From Anaerohalosphaeraceae bacterium (GTDB lineage: Bacteria; Planctomycetota; Phycisphaerae; Sedimentisphaerales; Anaerohalosphaeraceae), in NCBI GenBank assembly GCA_037479115.1, contig JBBFLK010000001.1, positions 164,455 to 228,454 of the forward strand: a stretch of DNA of 64,000 nt, given 5' to 3'. The notes beneath the pieces are model-generated. The model did no database searches. It was not told where the DNA came from and saw only the letters and a list, made by a program, of their open reading frames with translations. Shown here piece by piece: positions 1-40,381 of this stretch. The translations under genes and the position numbers were made by a program. Within the stretch, counting starts at the first letter, position 1. Each line of letters starts with the position of its first letter.

Positions 1-1197
1 CTGCCGATTATGGCGGCAATGATTCTGCCCGGCGGGGTGAGCACAATCCCCAATGCGCCGTATCTGGCGGATATCGCCTCGTTCGAGACGCTGCTGGAGA
101 GCATGGGAGCCCGGGTCGAACGGACGGCCGACGGGGCCCTGCAGATTGACAGCGGGCCCCTGGATCGCCCCGTGGGGGAGTACGACATCGTGCGCAAGAT
201 TCGCGCCAGCATCTGCATTCTGGGGCCGCTTTTGGCTCGTTTCGGCAAGGCGCGGGTGTCGATGCCGGGCGGATGTGCCATTGGGGACCGGCCTGTGGAT
301 ATTCATTTGCGCGGGCTTCGGGCCCTCGGGGCCAAGATTCATCTGGAGCAGGGCTATATCGTGGCCGAGGCCCCGGCGGGCGGCCTGGTGGGGACGCAGA
401 TTTTTCTGGGCGGGCCGTTCGGAACGACCGTGCTGGGCACGGACAACGTGATGATGGCGGCGGTGCTGGCCAAAGGCACGACGGTGATTGAGTCGGCTGC
501 CTGCGAGCCGGAGGTGGCGGACCTGGCCAATTGCCTGAATGCAATGGGGGCAAAAATCAGCGGCATCGGCTCGCCGCGGCTGGTGATTGAAGGGGTCAGG
601 CATCTGAATCCCGTTTCCTATTCCGTAATCGGGGACCGGATCGAGGCGGGCACATTTATGGCGGCGGCGGCCATTACCCGCGGGTGTCTGCGAATTCGAA
701 ACTGCCCCATTCACCAGATGCTGGCGGTGACGGACCGGCTTCGCCATATCGGCCTGACGGTAGAGGAGGGGCCCGGAGAGTGCACAGTGCGCTACGAAGG
801 GCAGCTGCTTCCGGCCGATATTACCACGCAGCCGTATCCGGGATTTCCGACGGACCTGCAGGCGCAGTTTATGGCTCTGCTGGCGTTGGCCAGGGGAAAC
901 AGTGTGATTACGGAAAAAATCTTTCCGGACCGCTTTATGCATGTGGCGGAACTGAACCGGATGGCGGCGCATCTGCGCAAAGAGGGCTCCAGCGTGATTG
1001 TCGAGGGGGTGGAAAAGTTGATTGGCGCGCCGGTAATGGCCTCGGACCTGCGGGCCTCGGCGGCCCTGGTGCTGGCGGGCATGGCCGCCCACGGGCTGAC
1101 CACGGTGCAGCGGGTCTATCACATTGACCGGGGCTATGAAAAAATCGAGGAAAAGCTCAACCGAGTCGGGGCCAAAATCCGCCGACTTGCAGTGTAG
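1..1197 (+). CDS. murA: UDP-N-acetylglucosamine 1-carboxyvinyltransferase (5' end missing)
   Basis: This enzyme makes the first committed step of peptidoglycan synthesis, moving enolpyruvate from PEP to UDP-GlcNAc in the cytoplasm. The frame is open from base 1 (L-P-I-M-A-A, part of the family's N-terminal A-L-P-I-M-A-A stretch), so the true start lies roughly 20 codons upstream and the ATG at 10 is internal. The motif PGGCAIGDRPVD near 265-300 holds the catalytic cysteine that fosfomycin alkylates, so this is the Cys-type enzyme. The frame then runs without break to a TAG at 1195-1197, with the usual two-domain EPSP-synthase-like fold expected from length. murF and mraY follow within 4 kb, which fits a loosened cell-wall cluster. 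Confidence 0.96.
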   Translation: MPIMAAMILPGGVSTIPNAPYLADIASFETLLESMGARVERTADGALQIDSGPLDRPVGEYDIVRKIRASICILGPLLARFGKARVSMPGGCAIGDRPVDIHLRGLRALGAKIHLEQGYIVAEAPAGGLVGTQIFLGGPFGTTVLGTDNVMMAAVLAKGTTVIESAACEPEVADLANCLNAMGAKISGIGSPRLVIEGVRHLNPVSYSVIGDRIEAGTFMAAAAITRGCLRIRNCPIHQMLAVTDRLRHIGLTVEEGPGECTVRYEGQLLPADITTQPYPGFPTDLQAQFMALLALARGNSVITEKIFPDRFMHVAELNRMAAHLRKEGSSVIVEGVEKLIGAPVMASDLRASAALVLAGMAAHGLTTVQRVYHIDRGYEKIEEKLNRVGAKIRRLAV

Positions 1198-1232
1198 AAA
1201 TATTTCATGCCTTGTCTGATTGAGAGGGTGCT

Positions 1233-1427
1233 ATGGAGTGCAAGCAGGAAAAGAATCTGAAATTCTGCAGCTGTTCGTATCCCGGATGCAGCCGAAAAGG
1301 CATCTGCTGCGACTGCCTTCAATACCATTTAAAAAACCGCCAGTTGCCGGGCTGCTGTTTTCCACCGTCAGCGGAAAAGACCTATGACCGCAGTTTTGCG
1401 GCGTTTGCGAAGGCCTGGAATCTGTAA
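1233..1427 (+). CDS. small cysteine-rich DUF6485-like protein
   Basis: A 64-residue protein with seven cysteines in a CSCSYPGCSRKGICCDC core, followed by a Phe-Pro-Pro and a Tyr-Asp-Arg segment. I recognise this pattern as the DUF6485 type of small cytosolic proteins found in many anaerobes; the cysteines suggest a metal or Fe-S site, but the function is unknown. The start at 1233 has a GAGAGGG ribosome-binding site about 4-10 bases upstream. It lies 35 bases after murA on the same strand and may be cotranscribed with it. No signal peptide or membrane segment is visible. Confidence 0.8.
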   Translation: MECKQEKNLKFCSCSYPGCSRKGICCDCLQYHLKNRQLPGCCFPPSAEKTYDRSFAAFAKAWNL

Positions 1428-1451
1428 GAATTGTCTGCCGCTCCCTGCCCT

Positions 1452-2279
1452 TTAGTCAGGAAGGCCCTGCATCCATTCGGGCCAGGCGGGTTCAGGAGCG
1501 TTGGTGTCGCTTCCGCGGTGCCATTTCATCTTCCAGAGCTTCTTCAGCCCGTTCTGGTGAACTCCCAAATCCAGAAACAGGATATTGGTGCGCCCATCGT
1601 GACGGGCGATGGCGAAATGACGCATCTGGCGGCTTCCCCCGCCGGTCAGGTCGCAGTTGCTGAAATCCCCGTTTTTTTCAGGAGGCAGATTGTTGTTGTC
1701 CGGAAAGGCCCGAATCCACATGCTGTCCAGCACCAGCGGGATTTTGGAAGCACTTTCACCGACATCGAAGCGTCTCCAGTTCTTCGAGGTGGAGATGCCG
1801 TAAATTTCTTTTTCTGATGAAGAGACATGGCAGACCCAGCCGTTGATGCCGTAGCTGCCGAGGGCGATTGGTTCGGAGGAGTGAGGATACTGAATCGGGA
1901 AAGCGGCGAACGGCTGACCGAAATCGCTGGGAGGAATGGTGCCGGGCTGGGCGGCTGTCGGGCAGCAGCTTATGCTTTTGTTGGGGCCGGCGCTGACGGA
2001 GGAGGGGGAACCGGAAGGGCCTCGAGCGGTCTCGGAATAGGGCAGAAGCGAAATCATCCAGTCGCGGCTGTCTGCGGGCAGATAACCGTCATTGTCATTG
2101 GAATAGATAACCAGATAAATCCCCCACTGTTTGAGGTTGGATTGACAGGTGATGGTCTGAACCCTTCCCTGGGCCTTGAACAGAGAGGGGATAACGATTG
2201 CCAGCAGCAGTGCAATCAGAAACACTACTACGAGCAGTTCAAGGACTGTAAACCCGGTTTTGGAATACCGGCTGTTCAT
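1452..2279 (-). CDS. prepilin-type pseudopilin with H-x9-DG-like C-terminus
   Basis: A 275-residue secreted pseudopilin of the kind multiplied in Planctomycetota. Near the N-terminus, G-F-T-V-L-E-L-L is the prepilin peptidase site (cleavage after Gly, Glu at mature position 5), followed by one hydrophobic helix. The C-terminal half has R-H-x-A-I-A-R-H-D-G-R-T-N-I-L-F-L-D, which resembles the H-x9-DG region of the DUF1559 group. I place the start at 2279 rather than at the upstream in-frame ATG at 2330, because GGAGGATT sits directly before 2279 and the shorter form gives a normal prepilin leader. It stands alone, convergent with the DUF6485-like gene; no secretion ATPase or peptidase gene is nearby. 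Confidence 0.88.
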   Translation of the reverse strand: MNSRYSKTGFTVLELLVVVFLIALLLAIVIPSLFKAQGRVQTITCQSNLKQWGIYLVIYSNDNDGYLPADSRDWMISLLPYSETARGPSGSPSSVSAGPNKSISCCPTAAQPGTIPPSDFGQPFAAFPIQYPHSSEPIALGSYGINGWVCHVSSSEKEIYGISTSKNWRRFDVGESASKIPLVLDSMWIRAFPDNNNLPPEKNGDFSNCDLTGGGSRQMRHFAIARHDGRTNILFLDLGVHQNGLKKLWKMKWHRGSDTNAPEPAWPEWMQGLPD

Positions 2280-2545
2280 AATCCTCCGGCGCGATTCCGT
2301 CCTTTTTTTATCGCCCCTCTGCTGATTCATCGTATCGCAGGGTCAGGAGAAAATCAATAAGAAAATAAGGACTTTATATTATTATCATATATAGACAATA
2401 GTATATCTCCTATTAAGGTCTTATAATAACATGATTTTTTATCTATTTTAAAAGGGTTTCCTGATTTATTATATGCTTATTGACAGTATATATCGTCTAT
2501 AATAAGGAAAATTTAAAAAAAATTAGAAAATTTTGAAAAAGAGAC

Positions 2546-2575
2546 TTGAACTGCATAGGGAATATTCCGTAGAAT
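2546..2575 (+). promoter_or_regulatory. sigma70-type promoter of candidate small RNA
   Basis: TTGAAC at 2546-2551 and TAGAAT at 2570-2575 are separated by 18 bases, predicting a start near 2582. The only element downstream before the terminator at 2631-2670 is the candidate small RNA. Confidence 0.45.
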
Positions 2576-2581
2576 ATGTTA

Positions 2582-2670
2582 ACAAGATTACCCTCCTCCT
2601 CCTAATGCCAGGTTCTTCAACCTGGGAAAAAAGCAGCGGTTGCCTCCTTGCCGCTGCTTTTCTTTTTTTT
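2582..2670 (+). ncRNA. candidate orphan sRNA with C-rich anti-Shine-Dalgarno loops
   Basis: A transcript of about 85-89 bases would run from the predicted start near 2582 to the U-run of the terminator. It would have an open 5' part carrying four CCT repeats (2592-2603), a 7-bp hairpin (2608-2614 with 2619-2625, loop CTTC), and a terminal 9-bp hairpin whose loop contains CCTCCTT (2643-2649), the exact anti-Shine-Dalgarno sequence. Exposed CCUCC motifs in loops are the hallmark of many trans-acting regulatory RNAs that pair with ribosome-binding sites. No plus-strand gene lies upstream, so the terminator has no other obvious owner. Whether it is expressed is inference. Confidence 0.5.
2631..2670 (+). 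terminator. Rho-independent terminator
   Basis: AAGCAGCGG (2631-2639) pairs with CCGCTGCTT (2651-2659) around an 11-base loop, followed by a run of about 11 T interrupted by one C. It is an intrinsic terminator by every visible criterion. Confidence 0.85.
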
Positions 2671-2864
2671 AAAGTGTTTCAAAAAACATTTTTCTTTCAC
2701 TTATATAGGGAATAATACGGATGTTCTTGTCATCCCATTTCTGGTATGGTTCTTGCTGCCGTTCGAGGAAGAAGTCCATAGCACAGTGACAAATCTTTTG
2801 GTAGATTATGGGGTGTTCGAGCGGGCCAGGAATGATAGCGTATTTGGGAAAGCTGGGCAGTTGA

Positions 2865-4265
2865 ATGGAATCTCTGCGTTTATCGGAAATGTGCGAAGTC
2901 TTGCAGCATCCGTTTCCTGCGCAGGCGGAACGGATGATAACAGGGGTCAGCATTGATTCTCGTACCATTCAGCCGGGGGAGTGTTTTTTTGCTGTTCCGG
3001 GCGAGCGTTTTGACGGCCACGACTTTCTTCATCAGGCAGAGCAGAAAGGGGCGGCTTGTGCCGTCGTTCACAAAGAACTGCCGGCGGATTTAAAGATTCC
3101 GGTCATTCGCGTGGAGGATACGGTTCGTTCGCTGGGGCAGCTGGCGGCCTGGTATCGAAGACGGCTGAAGGCCCGGGTGATTGCAATTACCGGTTCCGTC
3201 GGCAAAACCACTACACGCCATCTGCTATTCGGCGTGCTGGGCCGTCATTTTCGGGCTCGGCAGGCCCCGAAAAGCTTTAACAATCAAATCGGTGTGCCGC
3301 TGACGCTTTTGTCCGCTCAGCCGGAGGATGAGATTCTTCTGGTGGAAATCGGGATGAATCATCCCGGCGAGATTGCCCCCTTGAGCCGGATGGCTGGTCC
3401 GGATATTGCCGTGATTACCCATATTGCGCCGGCCCATTTGGAGGGGATGGGTTCCATAGCGGCCATTATTCAGGAAAAAGCATCGATTCTGGAGGGACTT
3501 TCTTCTGAAGGAAGGGCCTACATCAACGGCGATATTCCCGAGTTGGTAAGTTATGTTCGACAAAATTATTCCCATCCGGTCATTACCGTCGGCGAAGGGC
3601 CTGATTGTATGGTTCGAGCGGAACGGCTGCACAGCTGCGGGACCAACGGCTGGCTGCAGCTGGAAGGGCAGACCATTCGGGTCCCGCTGGCCGGTATCGG
3701 TTCGCTTCGCAACAGTTTGATGGTATGGGCGGTTTGTCGGGATTTGGGCGTCCGTTTATCGGACTTTGCAGAGGCGATGAAGACGGTCACACCGGCGGAT
3801 ATGCGGATGCAGCTGGAGCATATCGGGCCGCTGACGGTGCTCAATGACTGCTACAATGCCAATCCGGCCTCGATGGAAAATGCCGTGGATTGTCTGGTGC
3901 GGATGGCTCAGTCGCAGGGACGGCGGAGCGTGTTTATCGCGGGGGATATGCTCGAACTGGGCAGTGAGAGCGACCCCCTGCACCGTCAATTGGGAAAGTT
4001 TGCCGCCGAACGCGGGGTCGGGGTAATTTTGGCGGCAGGCCGTTTCGCTCAGGCTTTGGCGGAAGGAGCGGCTCAAGCCGATAATCTTTCGGGCAGTACC
4101 GGTGTGCGTATTGCTTTTGGAACGGTGGAAGCCCTGTGCAATAATCTGCACTTTTATGTTCAGCCGGACGATATAATACTCATCAAGGCGTCCCGCTCCG
4201 TCCGTCTGGAACGAGTTGCGGAACGGCTGCGGGAGCTGTTCGCCGGACGACAGAGTGCCTCTTAG
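2865..4265 (+). CDS. murF: UDP-MurNAc-tripeptide--D-alanyl-D-alanine ligase
   Basis: This Mur ligase adds D-Ala-D-Ala to the UDP-MurNAc-tripeptide in the cytoplasm, using ATP. At 466 residues it has family length. The N-terminal domain carries S-I-D-S-R and an F-D-G-H-D-F segment. The central ATPase domain has the P-loop ITGSVGKTTTRH near residues 108-118, then S-F-N-N-Q-I-G-V-P-L and G-M-N-H-P-G-E-I, which distinguish MurF from MurE. The C-terminal domain begins with L-N-D-C-Y-N-A-N-P-A-S-M. The start at 2865 has only a weak upstream purine stretch, but it gives a normal MurF N-terminus. mraY begins 15 bases downstream, the classic murF-mraY order. Confidence 0.96.
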   Translation: MESLRLSEMCEVLQHPFPAQAERMITGVSIDSRTIQPGECFFAVPGERFDGHDFLHQAEQKGAACAVVHKELPADLKIPVIRVEDTVRSLGQLAAWYRRRLKARVIAITGSVGKTTTRHLLFGVLGRHFRARQAPKSFNNQIGVPLTLLSAQPEDEILLVEIGMNHPGEIAPLSRMAGPDIAVITHIAPAHLEGMGSIAAIIQEKASILEGLSSEGRAYINGDIPELVSYVRQNYSHPVITVGEGPDCMVRAERLHSCGTNGWLQLEGQTIRVPLAGIGSLRNSLMVWAVCRDLGVRLSDFAEAMKTVTPADMRMQLEHIGPLTVLNDCYNANPASMENAVDCLVRMAQSQGRRSVFIAGDMLELGSESDPLHRQLGKFAAERGVGVILAAGRFAQALAEGAAQADNLSGSTGVRIAFGTVEALCNNLHFYVQPDDIILIKASRSVRLERVAERLRELFAGRQSAS

Positions 4266-4280
4266 AAAACGAGGAAGAAA

Positions 4281-5426
4281 TTGATTTATCATCTTTGCGA
4301 ACTTTTACAGATTTACCGCATCGGTTTTTATGCCTATGAGGATGTTCTTTTTCGGGCGGTCATAGCGGCCCTGACCAGCTGGGGGCTGACATTCTGGATG
4401 GGGCCGAAGGTGATTCGCTGGCTGATGCGCAAGAAAATCGGCGACCGGCCTGAGTTTCATCATGCTGCTCTCAATGAACTGATGAAAGACCGCGCCAATA
4501 CCCCGACGATGGGCGGCATTATCATTCTGACCGGAATTTTAACCAGTACACTTCTGTGGTCCAAACTGACCAATCCGTTTATGCACAAGGCGGTGATTCT
4601 GGTGCTCTTCTTCGGCTGGATTGGGGGGCTGGATGATTACTGGAAGCTGACCGGAAAAATCGCCGGACAAAGCCGGGACGGTCTGCTGGCCTGGCAGAAA
4701 CTGGTTTATCAGCTGGGCGGCTCCTTCCTGGTAGCGTGGTTTTTGTATTCGGATATGAGGGAGCTGGAGGATGCGCGGCTTTTGTGGCTTCCGTTTTATA
4801 AGCACGGCATCCCGCTGGCGGGCTGGATGTTTGTGATCCTGTCGATGCTGTACATTACCGCCACGAGCAATGCGGTGAATCTGACGGACGGGATGGACGG
4901 ACTGGCCTCGGGCTGCATCGGGATTGTTTCGACGGTGCTGGTGATTCTCTGCTATATTGCCTCAGAGGCGATGGGACGGGCCACCACGATGACCTGGGCG
5001 GGATACCTGCTGCTGCCGCGGGTGCCCGGGGCGGGGGAGCTGTGCATTTTCTTTGCAGCGATTACCGGCTCCATTCTGGGTTTCTTGTGGTACAACTGTC
5101 ATCCGGCGCAGGTGTTTATGGGCGATATCGGGTCGCTGCCGCTGGGGGCGGCGATGGGCTATGGGGCGATTGTGACCCGTAATGAAATCCTGCTGCTGCT
5201 GATTGGAGGGGTCTTTGTCATGGAACTGGGCAGCGTGATTCTGCAAGTCGGCTATTTCAAATATACCAAATATAAATACTCGGCCGGACGCAAACTGTTT
5301 AAATGTGCACCGATTCATCACCATTTCCATTTGAGCGGCTGGTCGGAACCCCAGGTGGTAGTGCGGTTCTGGCTTCTGTCGATTGCGTTTGCGATTCTGG
5401 CGCTGGCGACTCTGAAACTGCGGTAA
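4281..5426 (+). CDS. mraY: phospho-N-acetylmuramoyl-pentapeptide transferase
   Basis: MraY transfers phospho-MurNAc-pentapeptide to undecaprenyl phosphate, giving lipid I at the inner face of the membrane. The protein (381 residues, about ten membrane helices) has T-P-T-M-G-G-I-I near residue 75, the Asp-Asp pair of DDYWK near 117, NLTDGMDGLASG near 200, the G-D-I-G-S-L motif, and the HHHFHLSGW metal and substrate loop near 346. Translation starts at a TTG at 4281 preceded by GAGGAAG; no in-frame ATG would keep the first helix. It sits between murF and a glycosyltransferase and is probably cotranscribed with both. Confidence 0.96.
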   Translation: MIYHLCELLQIYRIGFYAYEDVLFRAVIAALTSWGLTFWMGPKVIRWLMRKKIGDRPEFHHAALNELMKDRANTPTMGGIIILTGILTSTLLWSKLTNPFMHKAVILVLFFGWIGGLDDYWKLTGKIAGQSRDGLLAWQKLVYQLGGSFLVAWFLYSDMRELEDARLLWLPFYKHGIPLAGWMFVILSMLYITATSNAVNLTDGMDGLASGCIGIVSTVLVILCYIASEAMGRATTMTWAGYLLLPRVPGAGELCIFFAAITGSILGFLWYNCHPAQVFMGDIGSLPLGAAMGYGAIVTRNEILLLLIGGVFVMELGSVILQVGYFKYTKYKYSAGRKLFKCAPIHHHFHLSGWSEPQVVVRFWLLSIAFAILALATLKLR

Positions 5427-36205: not shown

Positions 36206-37249
36206 ATGGCCGCCGTAAGCCGTTCATCTCGAACAGGGCCGATTCTGATTCCGGAGCTGGAACTGGAACACTTTCAGCCGCCGGTTTCGGAGCCCGGTCC
36301 GGTCCGCCATCCGGTCGGTTCCGTTCGGTTTGGCTGGGTAGGGGCCGGGGCGGCCGGCTGCTGTCTGGCCGAATGGTTTTCTCGTCTCGGCTATGAAAAG
36401 GTCATTGCTGTCAGTTCCGATGCGGCACATCTCAAATCGCTCAATCTGCCGGAAAACCAAAAATGTCTCTGGCCCGCGGCTCTTCCAAAACGTCTCCGTT
36501 TCGGCAGTCCGAAAGAATCTCCCCGTGCCATCGGACGGGATTTATTCGGGAGAATGGAAGAGGTCTTTGGGGAAGATGCAGATTTTCTGATGCTGTGCCT
36601 GTCAGAGGACGAATCGGAAAAGGGCGGTTTGGTTTGTTCCCTGATGGATGTGGTGAACAGCTATGCCCGTCTGCTCAGTTTTCGACGTCCGGGACGCACC
36701 GCAGGCATTTTTTTATTCGAATTGCCGCATCTTCTCAACAGGTTTCACGGCCTTATCCGGCCTATGGTAGCGGCCGGTTCGCAGGTCGGCGGCGGACGCA
36801 GACAGGCGAATGAGGATTTCCTCCGCCGCCGTGCGGAATTGTTTGCTTTGTTTAATCGGTTCAGCGCTCAGCCGACGCCCTATTTGACATTTGATTCCAT
36901 GGATTATCTGGATGTCCTGACGGCGGGCGGCTGGACGGTGATGGGAGAAAGCCGGCTGTCTGAACCGCCCGACCGAAGCAGCATTTCCCGAGCGGTCCGG
37001 CAGGCACTCGAACAATGCACGCTCGGCGGCCGATTCTCCCTGAAGCAGACACAGGCGGCGGCCTGCCTGATGGTCGGCGGACAGGAGATGATGGCCGATA
37101 TTCCGGGGCTGCCGGATGTGCTGCTGTATGGTTTCGATGTCCTGACAGCCCTGCTCGGACGAGCCCGCGTTCATCGGGGCATTTACGAGGACCAGGACCC
37201 CTCCCTTCGCATTTATGTCCTCCTGAGCGGTCTGCAGCCGCAGTCCTGA
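36206..37249 (+). CDS. highly divergent FtsZ/tubulin-like protein
   Basis: A 347-residue protein that aligns along its length with FtsZ by eye. Residues 40-51 read V-R-F-G-W-V-G-A-G-A-A-G, matching the first glycine-rich GTP loop; I-A-V-S-S-D-A-A-H-L matches I-A-V-N-T-D-A-Q-A-L; A-D-F-L-M-L-C-L-S at 125-133 matches the strand before the tubulin signature. There the GGGTGTG motif is replaced by S-E-D-E-S-E-K-G-G. A T7-loop-like T-F-D-S-M-D (228-233) and A-G-G-W-T-V-M-G-E-S follow, as in the FtsZ C-terminal domain. Nucleotide binding is therefore probably altered or lost. The start at 36206 has GGAG some 15 bases upstream, so it is not certain. Confidence 0.7.
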   Translation: MAAVSRSSRTGPILIPELELEHFQPPVSEPGPVRHPVGSVRFGWVGAGAAGCCLAEWFSRLGYEKVIAVSSDAAHLKSLNLPENQKCLWPAALPKRLRFGSPKESPRAIGRDLFGRMEEVFGEDADFLMLCLSEDESEKGGLVCSLMDVVNSYARLLSFRRPGRTAGIFLFELPHLLNRFHGLIRPMVAAGSQVGGGRRQANEDFLRRRAELFALFNRFSAQPTPYLTFDSMDYLDVLTAGGWTVMGESRLSEPPDRSSISRAVRQALEQCTLGGRFSLKQTQAAACLMVGGQEMMADIPGLPDVLLYGFDVLTALLGRARVHRGIYEDQDPSLRIYVLLSGLQPQS

Positions 37250-37321: not shown

Positions 37322-37771
37322 ATGCGTGCGGTTGTTCAGCGGGTCAAAAAAGCCGTCTGCCGAGTGGACGGGCAGATCACCGGACAGATTCAGCAGGGGC
37401 TTTTGGTCTTTGTCGGCATCGGTGCGGAGGATGCCGATGCGGATGCCGTTTATCTGGCCGACAAGATAGCTCATCTTCGTGTGTTTGAAGACGCCGACGG
37501 ACGGATGAATCGGAATGTGCAGCAGGTCGGCGGCGGCGTGCTTCTAATCAGTCAGTTTACGCTCTACGGCGATTGTCGCAAAGGCCGCCGGCCGGATTTT
37601 ACCGCCGCCGCGGGCCCGGAGAAGGCCCGGAAGATGTATGAAGAATTCATTGAACTGCTTCGGGCGAAAGGCCTGACGGTTCAGACCGGCATCTTTGCGG
37701 CGATGATGGAAATCGACTGCCTTCAGGATGGGCCGGTGACAATTCTGCTGGACAGCCGGCGGCTTTTTTAA
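37322..37771 (+). CDS. dtd: D-aminoacyl-tRNA deacylase
   Basis: Dtd removes D-amino acids, and glycine mischarged on tRNA-Ala, from tRNA. The 149-residue protein begins M-R-A-V-V-Q-R-V and has the diagnostic S-Q-F-T-L-Y-G-D motif followed by R-K-G-R-R-P, and the C-terminal G-P-V-T-I-L-L-D-S (the Gly-cisPro equivalent is G-P-V-T). TTGTTT (37265) and TAATCT (37288) form a weak promoter-like pair upstream. Its end converges with the acylphosphatase gene with only one base between them. Confidence 0.95.
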   Translation: MRAVVQRVKKAVCRVDGQITGQIQQGLLVFVGIGAEDADADAVYLADKIAHLRVFEDADGRMNRNVQQVGGGVLLISQFTLYGDCRKGRRPDFTAAAGPEKARKMYEEFIELLRAKGLTVQTGIFAAMMEIDCLQDGPVTILLDSRRLF

Positions 37772-38049: not shown

Positions 38050-39558
38050 TCAATCCGCCCAAATCACACGCCCCTGTGCCCATTGGTAAAGGGCTTCCAC
38101 CCGCTCCCGCATCGTAACTGACAGCGGGACCGTATTGCGCACCGATTCGAGGAGAAGATCTGTATCCACCTCTTTTTTCTGGTGGAAGGCCTTGTACAGA
38201 GCCGAGAGAACGGCCTGCTCAATCTCCGAACCGCTGAATCCTTCGGCCGCCTCCGCCAGGGCCTCCAAATCAAACTCTTCCGGCTTCCGCTTGCGTTTTT
38301 TCAGATGAATCGCAAAAATTTCCCGCCGTACCTCTTTGCCGGGCAGGCCGACAAAAAAGATTTCATCAAACCGGCCCTTTCGCAGCAGTTCCGGCGGCAG
38401 GGCCTCAATGTCGTTGGCCGTGGCCACCAGAAACACCGGCTGCTTGTGTTCCTGCATCCAGGTCAGCAGCGTCGCAAACATCCGTTTGCTCAGCCCGCCG
38501 TCCGTGCTTTGGCTGGCGGCGGAGGCAAACGCCTTTTCAATCTCATCAATCCACAAAATCGCCGGCGACATCGCCTCAATCTGGCGCAGCGCCTTTCGCA
38601 GGTTGTTTTCCGATTCGCCGATATACTTGTTGTAAAGGGTTCCGCAGTCGAGCCGAAAGAGCGGCTGACGCCACGCCGCCGCAATCGCTTTGGCACACAA
38701 ACTCTTCCCCGCTCCCTGCACGCCGAGGATGAGAATCCCCCGCGGCGGGGTCAGTCCGAATTCAGCCGCCTGAGGACTGAAGGCCTTTTCGCGGGTTGCC
38801 AGCCATTCTTTTAAGTTTTTCATCCCGCCGATTTCGTCCAGCGTCAGGGGGGCCTCGACATATTCCAGCAGAGCATCGGCCTCCAGAAGGCGGCGTTTGC
38901 CGGCGATAATCCGGTTGACGTCCTCATCATCCAGCCGGTGGTCGCCCGCCACGGCCTCCTCCACCACCCGGCGGGCCTGGCGAATCGAAAGCCCCCGCAG
39001 ATTCCGAATGATGGCCTTCAGGCCCTGTTTGCTTAAGCCGATTTCCAGCGGGGTTTTGTTGTGGATTTGACGCAGGGTATTTCGAAAAACGTTTTCCAGT
39101 TCTTCTTCACTCGGCAGCGACAGCTCAAACCGCCGGCTGTAGCTGCGGATGCACTCCGGCAGACAATCCTCCCCGTCAATCAGAATCAGAACATTCTGGT
39201 TAAGTTCAACCCGATGGATGGTGTCCCGCAGCATCCGCAGAATCAGATGAGACTGAAGATACCTGCCCAAATCCAGCGCAACGCAGAACGTGCGGGAAGG
39301 CAGGTTGCAGAACTCCTTGAGTCCCTCTTCCGGAGACGGGTTTTCCGTTTTGCCGCCCAGCACCGGGTGGAGGCCGTCTCGGCTGCCGCGTCCGACGGAC
39401 CAAATCCGCATCTTCCAGTCCAGGATTTGAGCGGCCTTGCGAATGAGCTCGAGGGCCTGATGCTCCTCATAGGTGACAATCGAAAGGCAGCTGACCCCGC
39501 CTTCCACCAGCCGGAGCAGTTCCTGAACATCATTCATCGCTGTTTCTGACTTGGCCAT
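38050..39558 (-). CDS. Ycf46-like AAA ATPase
   Basis: A 502-residue cytoplasmic AAA+ protein. The N-terminal 200 residues form the divergent RecA-like domain of Ycf46 proteins. The AAA module has Walker [14 protein letters not shown] near residue 278, Walker [10 protein letters not shown] near 336, a sensor A-T-A-N-D, and [10 protein letters not shown]. Ycf46 homologues are conserved in cyanobacteria and many bacteria with poorly defined roles. The frame is open to 39759; I take the ATG at 39558 because the upstream extension is not family-like and would run into the divergent msrA. The ATG at 39537 is an alternative. Confidence 0.86.
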
Positions 39559-39667
39559 CCTGATTGGTATGGTACCGGCGGACCGCAAAATTTCAAGTTT
39601 TTTCATCGGCGGCTTCGGGCGGCTTTTTCCGAGAACTGCGGCCGGACAGGGACCGTAAGAATATATT

Positions 39668-40381
39668 GTGAAACATGCGAAAACAAAACGATGGTTTCTG
39701 TGGTTGTGCTGTGTTTGGCCGATGATTTCGTCGGCACACGCTCGCAGGGAGGCCGCCATGATTCCCTATTCGCTGACAAAGTACGCACAAACAGTCCTGA
39801 AAATCCAGGACCCCAATCAGCTCCTATCGCTGCCGGCGGCGACCTTTGGGGCCGGCTGCTACTGGGGTGTTGAACAGGCCTTCCGTGAGGTTCCCGGTGT
39901 GGCCGCGACGGCCGTTGGGTTTATGGGCGGACGAATCGAAAATCCGACGTATGAGCGGGTCTGCCGCGGCGATACCGGCCATGCGGAGGTTGTTCAGCTG
40001 CGATATGACCCCAATGCGGTTTCTTATATTCAGCTGCTGACGGTCTTTTTTGAAATCCACAATCCCACCCTGAAGAACCGCCAGGGCAACGACATCGGCA
40101 CACAGTATCGCTCGGTCATTTTTATCCATAATCCGGAACAGGAAAAAGCCGTCCGGACAGCTATAGCCGATTTAAACAAAAGCGGCCGGTATCGTCGGCC
40201 GATTGTTACGGAAATTGTTCCGGCCGGCACATTTTGGCCCGGTCCCGAATCCCACCAGCGCTATTTGGAAAAGAATCCGGCGGGCTATTGTCATATTCAC
40301 TTTCCGGTCCCTGTTATCGAAGAGCTGAAGAAATCTGTCCCCGCCGAGCCCAATCAGGTTCCTTCAAAAAAGGAAGATTGA
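39668..40381 (+). CDS. msrA: exported peptide methionine-S-sulfoxide reductase
   Basis: MsrA reduces the S-epimer of methionine sulfoxide in proteins. The 237-residue protein has the catalytic G-A-G-C-Y-W-G-V-E motif near residue 64, G-F-M-G-G-R, Y-E-x-V-C-R-G-D-T-G-H-A-E and G-T-Q-Y-R-S. An N-terminal stretch with a hydrophobic core (W-F-L-W-L-C-C-V-W-P-M) and A-H-A cleavage site suggests export, so it would repair envelope proteins. Translation starts at GTG 39668; an ATG at 39758 would give a cytoplasmic form. Confidence 0.92.
   Translation: MKHAKTKRWFLWLCCVWPMISSAHARREAAMIPYSLTKYAQTVLKIQDPNQLLSLPAATFGAGCYWGVEQAFREVPGVAATAVGFMGGRIENPTYERVCRGDTGHAEVVQLRYDPNAVSYIQLLTVFFEIHNPTLKNRQGNDIGTQYRSVIFIHNPEQEKAVRTAIADLNKSGRYRRPIVTEIVPAGTFWPGPESHQRYLEKNPAGYCHIHFPVPVIEELKKSVPAEPNQVPSKKED

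Follow-up and report, generated by a model that had tools for sequence, protein, structure and literature searches.

TubZ/RepX, the tubulin of type III plasmid partition, which contains the Pfam domains PF00091 and PF22453, is the described system closest to the proteins reported here, and tubulin folds are also encoded by phages, as PhuZ of the phiKZ-like jumbo phages and TubZ of phage c-st. In FtsZ and tubulin, the aspartates of the T7 loop act in trans, on the GTP bound in the pocket of the adjoining subunit. Plant ARC3 and eukaryotic Misato/DML1 are GTPase-degenerate FtsZ/tubulin paralogues, and ARC3 inhibits FtsZ assembly in plastids. Planctomycetes are textbook FtsZ-less bacteria (PMC5147048), and divergent superfamily members in this phylum, some of them fused to kinases, have been described by Makarova and Koonin as FtsZl1/Tubulin_2 (PMC2875224).

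The window, by which we mean the whole 64,000-nucleotide stretch of DNA analysed, encodes a protein of 347 amino acids (gene B), which an earlier note on this DNA had described as FtsZ-like with a destroyed GTP signature. A paralogue with an intact signature, G-A-G-G-G-T-G-G-G-S, is encoded on another contig of the same genome (gene A; G000:C8, 439 amino acids, L085:8210-9526). TubZ/RepX is both the best structural match of gene B (Z 27) and the best solved relative of gene A, but the A/B family is chromosomal, gene A possesses a Lys-rich N-terminal tail and gene B lacks the GTP signature. With PhuZ and c-st TubZ, the family shares a phage-borne tubulin fold; however, its phage members are found on T4-like contigs next to genes for terminase and portal and match no PHROG, and c-st TubZ is a distant match only. 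Gene B resembles FtsZ in its fold, T1, T7 and the order of the C-terminal domain, whereas it has lost T4, T5, T6 and H5, and the intact gene A falls far below the FtsZ cut-off. Like ARC3 and Misato/DML1, gene B has no working GTP signature and coexists with an intact tubulin-fold protein; unlike them, it is bacterial, belongs to a phage-related family and has no extra regulatory domain. ARC3 is the nearest working parallel to the capping or regulatory role proposed for gene B. The architecture of FtsZl1/Tubulin_2 differs from that of the A/B family, and its profile (PF13809) gave a sub-threshold score with gene A (20.4 bits, cut-off 27) and no match with gene B.

Gene B and its surroundings

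The features of gene B and its neighbourhood, in window coordinates, are as follows.

36206..37249, + strand: gene B, GTPase-dead tubulin-fold protein of 347 amino acids (ORF, orthologues and predicted structure)
36341..36358, + strand: T1 glycine loop G-A-G-A-A-G, residues 46-51, with G-x-G-x-x-G retained (alignment)
36602..36622, + strand: T4 signature site, S-E-D-E-S-E-K (residues 133-139) replacing G-A-G-G-G-T-G (alignment)
36719..36763, + strand: residues 172-186, a short loop compared with T5 and helix H5 of intact homologues (deletion)
36764..36799, + strand: S6/T6 region, residues 187-198, with the guanine-contact D-N changed to G-S
36800..36862, + strand: central helix H7, residues 199-219 (predicted structure)
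36863..37246, + strand: C-terminal domain, residues 220-347, comprising H8-S7-H9-S8-H10-S9-S10 and under the strongest constraint
36884..36913, + strand: T7 (synergy) loop L-T-F-D-S-M-D-Y (alignment)
37172..37192, + strand: H-R-G-I-Y-E-D strand, residues 323-329, near-invariant in cellular and phage members and retained in gene B
37322..37771, + strand: dtd, D-aminoacyl-tRNA deacylase, syntenic with gene B at several orthologous loci
38050..39759, - strand: AAA+ ATPase (CDC48/Ycf46-like), occurring near family tubulin genes at other loci too

The motifs that had been listed for this reading frame were located as W-V-G-A-G-A-A-G (residues 44-51), I-A-V-S-S-D-A (67-73) and T-F-D-S-M-D (228-233), and D230 and D233 of the last are retained in all orthologues. 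The M-G motif is present as V-M-G at 245-247, but it forms strand S7 and is not the C-terminal motif that it had been taken for. In the alignment with intact homologues, S-E-D-E-S-E-K occupied the exact columns of G-A-G-G-G-T-G with unaltered length, in agreement with the replacement originally reported, and helix H5 and the T5/T6 loops, which had been missing from that list, were found to be lost as well. Orthologues from the same genus showed 91, 88 and 62% identity and start at or near the same position.

Gene B is flanked by a HisF-like gene on one side and by dtd on the other, followed by an acylphosphatase gene and, on the opposite strand, the AAA+ ATPase gene. The same ATPase family was observed near tubulin genes in G210 (at the gene A locus), G609, G607 and G241, and CDC48/Ycf46-like members lie near family tubulin genes in varied contexts at the loci L086, L078, L080 and L127. 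The genes murA, murF and mraY, which had been regarded as within reach, are indeed present, but at window positions 1-5423, 31-35 kb from gene B; a functional link was rejected on account of this distance, and their presence was given no weight.

Homology and predicted structure

Searches with the gene B protein alone against Pfam, NCBIfam, PHROGs and PDB sequences gave nothing significant, and neither TIGR00065 (FtsZ) nor PF22453 (TubZ-like C-terminal domain) matched it, so that its assignment to the superfamily depends on its relatives. The best direct matches, ThiF, GMC oxidoreductase and dihydrolipoyl dehydrogenase, lay mostly in the first glycine loop and were rejected as chance. Relatives were sought with phmmer in 248 genomes of the class. 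The intact family matched residues 210-344 of gene B with an E value of about 4e-34 and the N-terminal half with 2e-16 to 2e-21; the former match takes in the paralogue of the same genome (L016) and its relatives, which pass PF00091. On sequence grounds, the resemblance of gene B to the intact tubulin family is not a matter of chance. Two weak matches within the class (L013 and L014) spanned the first glycine loop only, and L013 appears to be ThiF-like and unrelated.

An AlphaFold2 model of gene B, built on a 41-row alignment including intact paralogues, reached a pLDDT of 80 and a pTM of 0.79, and showed the order S1-H1-S2-H2-S3-H3-S4-H4-S5-(no H5)-S6-H7-H8-S7-H9-S8-H10-S9-S10, in which H5 is the sole missing element of the superfamily. 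A Foldseek search of the PDB placed TubZ at the top, followed by CetZ and FtsZ, and VIA-align gave Z 27.3 for TubZ (295 residues, 3.0 A), 25.7 for CetZ and 21-23 for FtsZ. These structural matches cover residues 35-347, the C-terminal domain included, with 264-298 residues in the FtsZ/TubZ alignments. A control model with the five gene B orthologues alone in the alignment was uninformative (pLDDT 45), indicating that the confident model leans on the intact relatives, which the sequence homology does not. Taken together, it is near certain that gene B encodes a tubulin/FtsZ-superfamily protein. The earlier note's claim of a tubulin fold complete with its C-terminal domain is thus borne out, and a placement in another Rossmann family without that domain, which it had named as the contrary outcome, does not hold.

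Gene A, the sole intact superfamily match in this genome, is a divergent tubulin. It passed the Pfam Tubulin profile (PF00091; 37-38 bits, cut-off 33) and failed the FtsZ profile TIGR00065 (49 bits, cut-off 295), and its match to PF22453, which is weak in cellular members, reached 20.8 bits against a cut-off of 26. Among solved structures, the profile of the intact family detected RepX/TubZ first (7e-13), then 4b46 (4e-11), which is deposited as FtsZ and described as CetZ1, and then phage TubZ and FtsZ. In most genomes, gene A carries a Lys/Arg-rich N-terminal tail of highly variable length (47 to 270 residues; typically 32-46% Lys plus Arg and 1-2% acidic residues) that resembles histone H1-like tails, and gene B is devoid of it. 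No TubR-like gene, TubR being small and fast-evolving, was recognised beside the family genes on clustering of their neighbours, among which no candidate common to the loci was conspicuous.

Duplication, decay and distribution

Gene B arose by duplication of gene A, a phage-related tubulin of TubZ-like type. In the phylogenetic tree it is a paralogue inside the phage/planctomycete tubulin family and a genus-specific second copy, and the gene B sequences of the genus form one clade (100/99) with long branches, whose exact sister is unsure. The state of T4 is graded among the orthologues, from GAGGRTGG (G210) through PGAKNAQD (G689) and LSEEEPEG (G035) to LSE(D/E)ESEK in the source species, which has LSEDESEK, and its two nearest relatives; the acidic replacement is conserved in four genomes. 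In the source species, the change consists of substitutions, with no net length change and no visible frameshift. The idea that SEDESEK arose by a compensated frameshift was rejected, because reading the other frames does not bring the signature back and conservation is seen for the residues in frame.

The loss is concentrated in the nucleotide-binding half. Gene B has lost the T2-T6 loops, helix H5 and the Asn at the beginning of H7 that contacts guanine, with T5, H5 and T6 deleted or rewritten, and has retained G-x-G-x-x-G of T1, D-x-x-D of T7 and the C-terminal domain. When near-invariant positions were defined on 45 intact homologues, gene B retained 22 of the 33 from H7 on, as against 20 of the 55 before H7 (Fisher p 0.008); the nucleotide-contact positions of T2-T6 and early H7 were almost all lost, and those of T7 and the HRGIYED strand almost all retained. 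The dN/dS of gene B was 0.16-0.33 (about 0.2), with values as low as 0.04 for its C-terminal domain, as compared with 0.055-0.147 for gene A; gene B evolves faster than gene A, and its frame is open in six genomes. These dN/dS values indicate that gene B is a maintained gene under purifying selection, in line with the earlier suggestion of a repurposed protein.

Independent damage to T4 of a second copy, with the T7 D-x-x-D retained, is seen in at least two other lineages of the order; the altered sequences are GGGAG (G609 and G626), GGAAG (G607) and SAEDIAASG (G682). Among the genomes of the order, a damaged second copy always coexists with an intact gene A, and gene A occurs without a second copy in about eleven genomes. 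This pattern suggests that genomes can do without the second copy and that it readily loses the GTP signature, with an intact gene A wherever a damaged copy occurs. In several relatives the second copy stands in tandem with gene A; gene B is not adjacent to gene A in this genus. Four second copies, those of G609, G626 and G607 and an incomplete one of G241, are fused to a C-terminal AAA lid of NtrC type (L119:9233-11026, L117:7785-9485, L118:6708-8285 and L132:1-864), and a Fis-type HTH was recognised in two of the four; lid and HTH correspond to the tail of an NtrC-type regulator. T4 is readable in three of these fusions and shows Thr changed to Ala (GGGAG/GGAAG). A truncated second copy of 187 amino acids beside an intact gene A (L100:9375-9935) is possibly a decayed duplicate.

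Of 161 genomes from the order, 28 carry the gene A family, 14 of them among the 66 good ones. A Tubulin-profile search of the same 161 genomes detected nothing above 51 bits and no canonical FtsZ in the order, and its matches were confined to genomes with the gene A family, apart from a single weak, sub-threshold match in G622. The phylum sample outside the order contained two distant members only, and a scan of GTDB contigs placed the family in Planctomycetota and on one contig labelled Omnitrophota. A gene-family search of plasmid and named-phage collections returned only distant TubZ-like matches, from Lysinibacillus/Paenibacillus plasmids and Bacillus phage G, and no close one. Relatives are encoded on at least 166 phage contigs of IMG/VR; among these, the 80 that were kept show 47-53% core identity, and some of their contigs are 170-190 kb long. 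At about 50 of these 80 loci the tubulin gene has the same set of genes downstream of it, which in L188 encode the terminase large subunit (E 2e-53) and the portal protein (E 6e-77). Of three phage tubulins tested, all matched PF00091 and two exceeded the cut-off of PF22453. The phage tubulins (L133-L212, e.g., L188:4992-6122) are encoded on T4-like contigs, in many cases immediately before the terminase and portal genes, carry the signatures GAGGGSGSGS, GVAGGSGGGS or GAAGGTGGGS, and have no PHROG. In a quick unrooted tree, which does not give the direction of transfer, one branch parts phage from cellular members. Searches of open-licence papers on TubZ in Planctomycetota, FtsZ in Sedimentisphaerales, tubulins of marine phages and degenerate paralogues of FtsZ brought up no description of the A/B family, and a tubulin family common to this order and phages is apparently undescribed.

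Possible roles of gene A and gene B

The resemblance to TubZ, the phage setting, the tail of gene A and the fusions of second copies together point to DNA positioning or partition rather than a division ring, and the absence of the gene A family from most genomes of the order also counts against the latter. Gene A may form a DNA-linked filament for partition or positioning, a proposal for which we see about as much reason to accept as to doubt. The overall explanation that we put forward for gene B, which we hold with a confidence poised midway, is that it encodes a GTP-dead tubulin that would dock via T7 on gene A filaments and cap or regulate them. Judging from the residues lost, the gene B protein very probably cannot bind or hydrolyse GTP, and it is plausibly non-polymerising. 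Because the T7 aspartates need the GTP pocket of a next subunit and gene B has no such pocket, the gene A protein is its somewhat probable partner. The T7/C-domain face of gene B would dock on the GTP-exposing end of a gene A filament and would offer no pocket to the next subunit; that it would act there by capping or shortening the filament or by setting off hydrolysis is conceivable, though we lean slightly against it. The HRGIYED strand is as well retained as T7, and the T7 residues could be kept for folding reasons; both points count against the explanation put forward, as do the separation of the two genes in this genus and the dependence of the confident model on intact paralogues.

Gene B might instead be an obligate co-subunit, alternating with gene A in a heteropolymer like alpha/beta-tubulin or BtubA/B, to which it would supply the T7 face and a nucleotide-free, still usable top face. 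Its constant company with gene A, the retained T1 loop and the tandem pairs of gene A and a second copy in several genomes are consistent with this, but the top face (T2-T6, H5) is deleted or rewritten, and the roughly eleven genomes with gene A alone show that gene A needs no gene B there; we consider such a heteropolymer unlikely. We likewise think it improbable that gene B was repurposed away from filaments, as a scaffold or for binding a ligand or DNA, with the C-terminal domain retained for that purpose. The conserved acidic T4 replacement, the strong constraint on the C-terminal domain and the recurrence of the AAA+ ATPase, which is possibly linked in function to the tubulin genes of this family, would fit this, but it would not explain why every orthologue, and the independently decayed copies too, have kept the T7 Asp pair.

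As for the two forms of relic, long branches, evolution faster than that of gene A and graded signature loss are what a functionless, decaying gene would show, but this is already disfavoured by dN/dS of 0.16-0.33 over large dS, and the open frames in six genomes and conserved synteny with dtd make it very unlikely. That gene B is what remains of a canonical FtsZ passed down vertically, as the earlier note had suggested, would account for the tubulin/FtsZ fold; however, the nearest relatives of gene B are TubZ-like and phage tubulins, the FtsZ score of its intact parent is 49 bits where the cut-off is 295, and the tree places gene B within the phage/planctomycete family, so that this origin is almost certainly wrong. 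This also cautions against taking FtsZ-like fragments in planctomycetes for remnants of a lost division ring.

Under the docking and capping explanation, this order repeatedly converts a second tubulin copy into a GTP-less protein with one polymer face. Such copies would be a natural experiment in which evolution removes half of a filament interface, so that capping and co-assembly can be distinguished by direct test. A far-reaching version, which we regard as highly improbable, is that gene A is a domesticated, DNA-bound chromosomal filament from, or common to, T4-like phages, and that the GTP-dead gene B protein is a dominant-negative cap poisoning incoming phage tubulins; if true, gene B would be a tubulin-based antiphage factor.

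Elsewhere in the phylum, two fusions of FHA-like and tubulin-like regions, read by eye, were observed in another planctomycete lineage (L035:550-2280 and L036:40-1932), beside an ADP-ribosylglycohydrolase-like gene; one of the two, the more distant relative in G396 (L036), is also without the GTP signature.
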